From assembly GCA_937139415.1 (NCBI GenBank), contig CAKZPS010000025.1:1-50101 (forward strand): a stretch of 50,101 nucleotides of DNA, written 5' to 3'. Position 1 is the stretch's first letter. Each line of letters begins with the position of its first letter. The position numbers were made by a program, and so were the translations under genes. Shown one piece after another: positions 34,568-46,961 of this stretch. The stretch comes from an uncultured bacterium. GTDB lineage: Bacteria; Atribacterota; Atribacteria; Atribacterales; Caldatribacteriaceae. Below the pieces are notes generated by a model, which made no database searches, was not told where the DNA came from, and saw only the letters and a program-made list of their open reading frames with translations.

Positions 34568-36316
34568 ATGAAGCAAGTGGCCACTCTTTTTTTGAGTTTC
34601 CTATGCATGGTTTGCTTCTCCATTCCTCTTGAAGCACAAACCTTACGCGGGGTATGGATCGATACAAGGAGTATCCCTCCAACCCGAGAAGAAGTGAAGA
34701 ACCTCCTTGGACGTTTGCACCGCTTTGGGGTGAACGCCGTTTTCGTAGAATCCTTCTACCAGGGGGAAACCATTTATCCTTCTCCTTTCCTGGCTTCCTT
34801 AGGCCTTCATAAGCAAAGGGAAACCTTCGCTCAGGCAGGAATTGACCCTCTCCAGGTTTTCGTCGAAGAAGCCCATCGCTTGTCCATGGAAGTACACGCT
34901 TGGATCCACATGTTCTACATTAGTTTGAATAACCCCGGCGGACTCCTTTCCCTCTACCCTCACTGGGCGGTAGTGAATCGAGAGGGGAAACCGGGTTACC
35001 AAAGTGGGAACAACTTTTTTTTCTGGCTCTGCCCTATGGAAGAGGAGGTAGAAAACTTTTACCTCCAACTCCTCACCGAACTTGCCGAAAGATACCCAGT
35101 GGATGGCATTCAGCTCGATTACTTTCGCTTCCCCGAATTCACCCTTGCCGATACCTGTTACGCCGAAAGTCATCGGAAAATGTTCACGGAACAATACGGA
35201 ATCGATCCCCTTACCCTCTCACCCACCGAAAATCCCCAAATGTACACCGAGTGGACGGAGTTCCGTTCCCAACAACTCACCAATTTTGCCCGCCACATCA
35301 CTAAGGCTCTCAAAGAAAAGTTTCCCAAGCTCACCCTTTCTTGCGCCGTGAAACCAATGGGTTTCCCCTTGGGGCTCTATCCCGGAACCATCCAAGACTG
35401 GCCTATCTGGGGGAAAGAGGGTCTCTTTGATTTTCTTGTCCCCATGACCTATAGCTCAAGACCGGCAGAGTTTGAAGGATTACTCCGCTGGGCAGGGATC
35501 TTTCTCGAAGGGACACCGTTTGCCCCAGGAATATGGACCGTTAACATGAACCCGGAAAGTGTCCTCGAAGAAGTGAAGAGAGCCTACCATTACCCTATAC
35601 GGGGGGTTATTCTTTTCGCCTATCCTTACCTCAATGATGATACGTTCACCCTCCTTGCCCAAGGACCGTTTCGCAGAGCACCCACCGAGGACAAAACTTT
35701 CCCTCCCATCTCCTTTTACCAAGAAAAAAGGCGCATGGTACGTGCCCGTTCTGTGACGCAAACGATCCTCATTGATGGTGCCCTCGATGAAGCAGTCTGG
35801 CAAGAGGCTGACTGGCAGAAAAGTTTTACCACCATAACCGGAGAGAAAGCCTCCCGGGATACTTCCGTTGCTGTCCTCTACGATACCGAGAATCTCTACT
35901 GCGCTTTTCGCCTGACGGACGTCTCCTCTTCGTCTTTCGAGGTACAGAAACGAGATGGTCCGGTATTCTACGAACCTTCGATAGAGGTGTTCCTTGACCC
36001 TTACGGGGGCAAGGGGATTTGGTACCAAATCGCCACCAATTACGGTGGAGTTATCTACGACTCCTTCTCTCTCCGGGGACCGAGTTTCAACGGTTCGTGG
36101 AAAGTAGCCACTTCCTTTGACTCCTCTTCTCTCACTCTCGCCATCGAAATGGCTCTGCCCTTCCAAGATTTGGGGAAAACCCCAAAGAGAGGGGAAATCT
36201 GGGGAGCAAATTTCTATCGCAACGAGCCCCAAGCAGGAGAATTGAGTGGACTTTCACCTATACCTGGGATTTACGCCGCACCAACTCTTTTAGGACAACT
36301 CCTCTTTGAAGAGTGA
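34568..36316 (+). CDS. Secreted GHL10 (DUF187) glycoside hydrolase-like protein with C-terminal CBM9-like domain
   Basis: The 582-residue protein starts at the ATG at 34568 with a signal peptide (about 1-24, cleavage near LEA-Q). Residues 27-375 are a GHL10/DUF187 TIM barrel: LRGVWIDTRS, GVNAVFVESFYQG, VHAWIHMFY, DGIQLDYFRFPE and FDFLVPMTYS. Residues about 395-582 are a carbohydrate-binding family-9-like beta-sandwich (ILIDGALDEAVWQEADW, SIEVFLDPYG). GHL10 proteins are thought to act on cell-surface or environmental polysaccharides, though few are characterised. It should be periplasmic or exported. It lies 482 nt after the mannosidase and appears to have its own promoter. Confidence 0.88.
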   Translation: MKQVATLFLSFLCMVCFSIPLEAQTLRGVWIDTRSIPPTREEVKNLLGRLHRFGVNAVFVESFYQGETIYPSPFLASLGLHKQRETFAQAGIDPLQVFVEEAHRLSMEVHAWIHMFYISLNNPGGLLSLYPHWAVVNREGKPGYQSGNNFFFWLCPMEEEVENFYLQLLTELAERYPVDGIQLDYFRFPEFTLADTCYAESHRKMFTEQYGIDPLTLSPTENPQMYTEWTEFRSQQLTNFARHITKALKEKFPKLTLSCAVKPMGFPLGLYPGTIQDWPIWGKEGLFDFLVPMTYSSRPAEFEGLLRWAGIFLEGTPFAPGIWTVNMNPESVLEEVKRAYHYPIRGVILFAYPYLNDDTFTLLAQGPFRRAPTEDKTFPPISFYQEKRRMVRARSVTQTILIDGALDEAVWQEADWQKSFTTITGEKASRDTSVAVLYDTENLYCAFRLTDVSSSSFEVQKRDGPVFYEPSIEVFLDPYGGKGIWYQIATNYGGVIYDSFSLRGPSFNGSWKVATSFDSSSLTLAIEMALPFQDLGKTPKRGEIWGANFYRNEPQAGELSGLSPIPGIYAAPTLLGQLLFEE

Positions 36317-36350: not shown

Positions 36351-36402
36351 AAAAAACACCTATGGGGAGCTACCTTAGCGGGAAGGTAACTCCCCATAGA
36401 TG
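36351..36402 (-). terminator. Strong intrinsic terminator
   Basis: CTATGGGGAG (36360-36369) pairs with CTCCCCATAG (36390-36399). TACCTT/AAGGTA extends it inward beyond one mismatch, and three outer pairs extend it further. On the minus strand six Ts (36351-36356) follow, so it works leftward. It would end the candidate small RNA and any readthrough from the 12-gene cluster. The 36317-36350 gap to the GHL10 stop is otherwise empty. Confidence 0.85.
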
Positions 36403-36444
36403 CAAGGAGGGGATTTTCGTTATTCAGGTGTACTTCAAACTTCC
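36351..36444 (-). ncRNA. Candidate trans-acting small RNA with C-rich anti-Shine-Dalgarno segment
   Basis: A near-perfect promoter (36452-36479) and a strong leftward terminator bracket about 94 nt that encode no protein. The transcript would have a roughly 45-nt single-stranded 5' part, then the terminator hairpin. Just before the hairpin is CCCCUCCUUG (complement of 36403-36412), which is complementary to Shine-Dalgarno sequences. RsaE/RoxS- and FsrA-type regulatory RNAs of Firmicutes use similar C-rich motifs to block translation. No homologue is recognised and expression is untested. The alternative is that the terminator serves only the upstream cluster and the promoter is fortuitous. 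Confidence 0.45.
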
Positions 36445-36451
36445 GAAAAAC

Positions 36452-36479
36452 ATTATATAAGGGATTTTCTTTTTGTCAA
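36452..36479 (-). promoter_or_regulatory. Consensus promoter for the candidate small RNA
   Basis: On the minus strand, TTGACA (36474-36479), 16 nt, TATAAT (36452-36457). Both hexamers are perfect matches to the sigma-70 consensus. The nearest leftward feature is only the terminator at 36351-36402. Confidence 0.7.
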
Positions 36480-36490
36480 TACCTATGAGA

Positions 36491-36510
36491 AAAAATTTTT
36501 AAAAATTTTT
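36491..36510. repeat. Tandem A5T5 decamer (phased A-tracts)
   Basis: The decamer AAAAATTTTT is repeated twice in perfect 10-bp phase, directly upstream of the small-RNA promoter and 12 nt past the Gfo/Idh stop. Phased A-tracts bend DNA and may act as an UP-element. On the minus strand the T-run could also support partial termination of the cluster. Confidence 0.6.
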
Positions 36511-46885: not shown

Positions 46886-46961
46886 GAGTTGCCCCTCCTG
46901 CTTAAAATCACGATAAATTTGAGTCTTTCGAGATGTTCTTAACAACAAAGTGGGAAACTCT

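Follow-up and report, generated by a model that had tools for sequence, protein, structure and literature searches.

The locus lies on the minus strand of the window, by which we mean the whole stretch of DNA analysed (50,101 nt, from an uncultured member of the Caldatribacteriaceae, phylum Atribacterota). It carries the following features:

36490..36510, minus strand: UP-element-like A/T-rich tract (AAAAATTTTTAAAAATTTTTT) 5' of the -35 hexamer, read from the sequence, with a presumed function
36474..36479, minus strand: -35 hexamer TTGACA, identical across the 18 of 18 type-A copies listed
36452..36457, minus strand: -10 hexamer TATAAT after a 16-nt spacer, both unchanged in every type-A copy
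36351..36444, minus strand: predicted small RNA of about 94 nt, with the predicted +1 at G36444 and then a conserved GGAA
36401..36413, minus strand: invariant core UCCCCUCCUUGCA, an anti-Shine-Dalgarno-like seed, in 48 of 48 copies with one G>A
36356..36403, minus strand: terminator hairpin of 21 pairs with a 6-nt loop, from folding and covariation
36351..36356, minus strand: U-run (TTTTTT) of the intrinsic terminator, read from the sequence

The exact pattern TTGACA-N15..19-TATAAT occurs once in the 50-kb window, where shuffles lead one to expect 0.02 occurrences, and the predicted +1 sits 8 nt 3' of the -10 hexamer. The consensus of 27 copies at this position is G (81%), G (74%), A (70%), A (70%), and it is this conserved 5'-GGAA that speaks for 36444 as the start and for a length of 94 nt. 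The RNA segment has a minimum free energy of -38.7 kcal/mol, as against -20.2 +/- 2.95 for shuffles (z = -6.3). The final three nucleotides of the core form the base of the stem: CCCCUCCUU is unpaired with a mean probability of 0.68, and GCA is paired. UCCCCUCCUU is mostly unpaired and is complementary to Shine-Dalgarno sequences (SDs) of the AAGGAGGGG type. A sequence-only reading of this DNA had proposed a minus-strand TTGACA-16-TATAAT promoter, about 94 nt without a gene, and a long stem followed by six Ts, preceded by a C-rich segment complementary to ribosome sites. All of these hold: the hexamers are exact at 36479-36474 and 36457-36452, there is no convincing ORF within the predicted sRNA segment, the GGAA fits a length of 94 nt, the 21-pair stem runs into TTTTTT at 36356-36351, and CCCCTCCTTG, at 36412-36403 immediately 5' of the stem, is conserved and mostly unpaired.

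The gene beside the element has its nearest named relatives in Ca. Caldatribacterium and Atribacteria, in keeping with an Atribacterota genome. When a 186-bp query was compared by blastn with 50 Atribacterota genomes, strong matches were found throughout the order, their similarity concentrated in the C-rich segment and the hairpin. The first 20 homologues read all have TTGACA, TATAAT and the 16-nt spacer, with an invariant CCCCTCCTTGCA lying 37-67 nt past the promoter; in type-A copies the promoter is always present, 37-57 nt upstream of the core. An early alignment of 18 homologues already had compensatory changes at 12 of the 21 stem pairs. The covariance model (R1) extended this to 48 copies in 23 of the 25 genomes of the order, with one to three copies in each and usually two or three. 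UCCCCUCCUURCA is unchanged in every copy (R standing for the one G>A), and over 42 distinct sequences 98.8% of the pair cells in the stem are standard and 17 of the 21 pairs show compensatory double changes, a level of covariation equalled in none of 500 shuffles. With 48 homologues in 23 genomes and covariation this strong, the locus is not a chance pattern. The sequence-only reading had named conservation of the terminator alone as the outcome that would speak against it; promoter, C-rich segment and hairpin are conserved together, so this is not what the related genomes hold.

Candidates at the margins of this distribution did not stand. A weak match in a more distant family (genome G029, 34.5 bits) has no C-rich core, and the GCAAGGAGGGG sites of G020 and G010, the genomes of the order without a match, are not sRNA genes. 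Outside the phylum no match was found among about 240 genomes of a 291-genome set, in which only the order's genomes matched; the search scored 16 first-look candidates in each genome, which makes the family's absence outside the phylum likely but leaves it short of proof. Plasmids gave no match to the sRNA, and viral contigs gave no convincing one, the best model score being 20 bits. The Rfam scan covered the window and the loci of four other copies: the element reaches no gathering score, at E<=10 there are only chance-level matches, with RsaE not among them, and tRNAs in those four loci were all that passed gathering. This agrees with the earlier statement that no homologue is recognised. 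With its own promoter, an intrinsic terminator, no ORF and independence of its neighbours, the element has the gene layout of the general class of trans-acting intergenic sRNAs.

There are three types of copy, all of which share UCCCCUCCUURCA. Type A, to which the copy in the window belongs, carries GAAAAUCCCC and in every case the perfect promoter, preceded in family f1 by an A/T-rich UP-like tract; an A-run/T-run tract at equal distance is found in most f1 type-A copies and many type-B copies and is absent from f2 type A. Type B has UCUUUCCCC and, in f1, f3 and f4, a further C-rich segment upstream, which in most copies reads GCACCUCCU or ACCCCACUAGCACCUCCU; GCACCUCCU strongly resembles the 16S tail, and CACCUCCU within ACCCCACUAGCACCUCCU is nearly identical to it. 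The genome of the window has a second copy of this type at G000:C9:53561-53630 on the plus strand (L078:4562-4631), with tandem M16 peptidase genes on one side and, 50 nt downstream, a tRNA gene on the other. Type C, from family f2, likewise has UCUUUCCCC. Most type-C copies have no sigma-70-like promoter and carry sequences of the type AAACTTTTT-N9-GCATAATA further upstream (L079-L084, L092); in L092 the sequence AAACTTT-N10-GCCGATA is tentatively sigma-28-promoter-like, a resemblance noticed post hoc. Judged by these sequences, one paralogue may respond to an alternative sigma factor.

The copies also differ in their surroundings, neighbour names outside the window having been assigned by reading sequences. 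Type-B copies follow M16 peptidase genes, f2 type-A copies follow indolepyruvate oxidoreductase genes, and type-C copies lie beside genes for a PfkB-type (sugar) kinase and a class II aldolase-like protein. All 11 f1 type-A loci are followed by a convergent gene, whereas their upstream genes vary. Such unrelated contexts, together with the convergent next gene, indicate independent transcription units rather than leaders, attenuators or antisense RNAs tied to a single gene.

As for targets, the sequence-only reading had proposed pairing with the ribosome site of ald. The match itself is exact: AGGAGGGG at 46892-46899, 6 nt ahead of the ATG of ald, has its perfect complement in CCCCTCCT of the sRNA. 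But ald as a conserved target had to be rejected: the gene is found in only two of the 25 genomes of the order, and the 8-nt match is lost in the other copy, where the ald SD reads AGAAGGAGGAACGC. A background of 1030 genes was sampled from 400 kb of each of three genomes (for G000, plus the window). Complementarity to SDs of at least 8 nt was found for 72 of these genes, compared with 79 +/- 19 for a flank-shuffled sRNA, and of at least 9 nt for 17, compared with 25.7 +/- 9.2, so that there is no excess at either length. Global anti-SD targeting was therefore rejected, since neither flank-randomised nor flank-shuffled controls were exceeded, and the result points to few targets rather than to a global decoy. 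Three narrower ideas were also set aside. A perfect 11-nt complement is no shared target, as most f2 genomes have it in the sRNA genes alone. The class TGCAAGGAGG-N-ATG, searched as a 10-nt complement ahead of an ATG, is not enriched, 19 sites being found where the reversed control gave 13; the genuine genes downstream of the 19 sites mostly encode exported proteins. Secreted proteins as a class do have higher complementarity, which follows from their generally stronger SDs.

The layout resembles that of several known C-rich sRNAs. Like RsaE/RoxS, FsrA and CsfG of the Firmicutes, the element is a short RNA with a C-rich single-stranded region, and it has separate paralogues, as in B. subtilis, where they answer to different sigma factors or signals; the Firmicutes RNAs bind their targets at or near SDs, with no major role established for Hfq (PMC8216469). 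The present family differs in that the seed CCCCUCCUUGCA directly abuts the terminator, in that type A has no 5' stem-loop bearing a second C-rich region, and in belonging to another phylum. An SD-complementary, C-rich single-stranded region is present as in RsaE/RoxS, but the described Rfam covariance model gives no match; thus the RsaE/RoxS/FsrA-like layout suggested by the sequence-only reading stands as a resemblance, and homology with the Firmicutes RNAs does not follow from it. A second parallel is αr14 (NfeR1)/AbcR of the α-proteobacteria, in which an ultraconserved anti-SD motif (CCUCCUCCC) is unpaired, the stems change in sequence, and SDs of multiple targets are silenced, in the case of NfeR1 independently of Hfq (PMC10746234). 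An αr14 RNA, however, has three hairpins and three CCUCCUCCC seeds, as against one hairpin and one core CCCCUCCUUGCA here, which places the element outside that family; the f1, f3 and f4 type-B copies have two C-rich segments, and both motif and lineage differ.

The LhrC family of Listeria is also a multi-copy sRNA with a C-rich motif and a strong terminator. Its covariance model (RF00616) scores the element at 18.9 bits, far below the gathering cut-off of 110, and the element is not a member. The likeness to RsaE/RoxS/FsrA and to αr14 is one of layout, analogous as judged by sequence, and implies no relationship.

Hfq (PF17209), the usual protein partner of sRNAs, was found in none of the 50 Atribacterota genomes, the controls (E. 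coli, B. subtilis and T. maritima) being positive, so the genome apparently does not offer what an Hfq-dependent sRNA would need. Precedents for anti-SD or C-rich RNAs acting with no leading role for Hfq exist: RoxS and FsrA use their C-rich regions in B. subtilis, where Hfq has no global role (PMC8216469), and among the αr14 RNAs, with their ultraconserved CCUCCUCCC anti-SD seed, NfeR1 acts without Hfq (PMC10746234).

We put at roughly 0.7 the probability that the locus is one type-A copy of a multi-copy, Hfq-independent, trans-acting sRNA family that pairs with SD regions. A strong housekeeping-type promoter would drive a short transcript, some 94 nt long, in which a variable 5' part beginning with GGAA is followed by the mostly single-stranded UCCCCUCCUUGCA and then by a long hairpin that would both terminate transcription and stabilise the RNA. 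The C-rich core would pair, without Hfq, with the G-rich SDs (AAGGAGGGG and its extended forms) of a restricted group of mRNAs, whose translation it would block, the candidate targets being exported and surface proteins. Types B and C, with other promoters and other 5' parts, would allow different signals to use the same seed. That the RNA is transcribed, pairs with SDs in vivo and represses, and what its targets and signal are, we infer from sequence comparison. SD pairing is the most likely mode of action, supported by the motif itself and by the RoxS/FsrA and αr14 analogues.

Several properties of the core might instead be explained if it mainly bound a protein, either an RNA chaperone or a regulator sponged in the manner of CsrB/CsrA, with mRNA pairing secondary. 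The 13-nt core is invariant while perfect complements are rare in the genomes; GCA is invariant even inside the stem, which no single target's pairing accounts for and which counts against the SD-pairing reading; the C-rich motif is repeated in the type-B copies of f1, f3 and f4; and SD complementarity shows no global excess. Yet the core has exactly the shape of an anti-SD, the SD-targeting seed CCUCCUCCC of αr14 is likewise ultraconserved (PMC10746234), and a candidate protein is lacking, so we consider protein binding an unlikely main function. Still less probable is a general decoy, in which an abundant RNA would imitate the 3' tail of 16S rRNA and so broadly lower translation initiation. 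Such a role would suit a promoter of near rRNA-promoter quality with an UP-like tract and the presence of several copies per genome. It would also suit the resemblance of CCCCUCCUU to the 16S tail CACCUCCUU. The CCCC part, however, is suboptimal for a general 16S mimic, and extended SD complementarity is not above the flank-shuffled controls and is, if anything, lower.

The remaining explanations concern the locus rather than the core. Because the element lies directly 3' of a Gfo/Idh operon, and because its convergent GHL10-type neighbour is conserved in f1, it could be imagined as that operon's terminator or as a leader, attenuator or antisense regulator of an adjoining gene. Against this, a perfect promoter of its own is conserved with it; the coding sequence of the convergent neighbour (in the window a GHL10/CBM9 glycosyl-hydrolase-like protein) stops at 36316, beyond the predicted transcript; the upstream genes vary by genus, the f2 and f4 copies and those of types B and C are located elsewhere, and f1 type-A loci have no downstream gene on the same strand. 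Context has thus largely refuted a cis-acting element, and we regard it as very improbable. To a dispersed mobile or repetitive element that happens to carry a terminator we give hardly any credence: there is indeed more than one copy per genome, but only one to three, with at most one per syntenic position and vertical conservation, the stem covaries, the promoter and 5' GGAA are conserved, plasmids yield no matches and viral contigs no convincing ones.

Judged by its sequences, the sRNA family is genuine and apparently undescribed, a member of no family tested. In the literature searched we found no regulatory RNA described from Atribacterota, of which very few members have been cultured; RNA-seq of the cultured isolate RT761 has been published (PMC7736352). 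Being conserved, covarying and multi-copy in genomes where Hfq was not found, the family would offer a clean case for chaperone-free sRNA regulation, and it would add another instance, alongside Firmicutes and α-proteobacteria, of the C-rich anti-SD design appearing separately. The 48-sequence alignment and 75-position model make a ready candidate for Rfam, accompanied by a specific set of candidate targets.

Two protein families are tentatively, on sequence grounds, better leads than ald. One is a secreted protein of about 270 aa, without a Pfam match, whose SD in this genome, ATGCAAGGAGGGG, is a 13-nt perfect complement of the core (L211/L278, G000:C14:2933-2952). Its homologues in several genera retain AGGAGGGG, a motif found in three of the 1030 sampled SD regions, and p is about 4e-4 with the seed excluded and genera collapsed. 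The other is a lipoprotein family of about 255 aa with 9-13-nt matches in several genera (p about 7e-3, again with the seed excluded and genera collapsed); its first 110 residues have no Pfam match. Both came to notice post hoc, and in many homologues the SD match is no more than the ordinary 6-8 nt. It is possible, if rather doubtful, that the sRNAs form an order-wide, Hfq-independent regulon in which paralogues with one seed and different promoters (sigma-70-type in A and B, often with an UP-like tract, and a different conserved motif, possibly sigma-28-like, in most of type C) repress surface lipoproteins and exported proteins by SD occlusion. Such a regulon, if real, would amount to an sRNA system for envelope control with an origin separate from that of MicA, RybB and MicL.

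The lipoprotein family (L218-L237) is fast-evolving and order-wide, with a Pro/Thr/Ser-rich linker, a strong promoter and a very short leader. At another site (L207, G017:C24:3135-3154) a lipoprotein-like start follows an SD of TGCAAGGAGG, and the frame stops after 39 aa; this is possibly a frameshifted gene or an assembly error.
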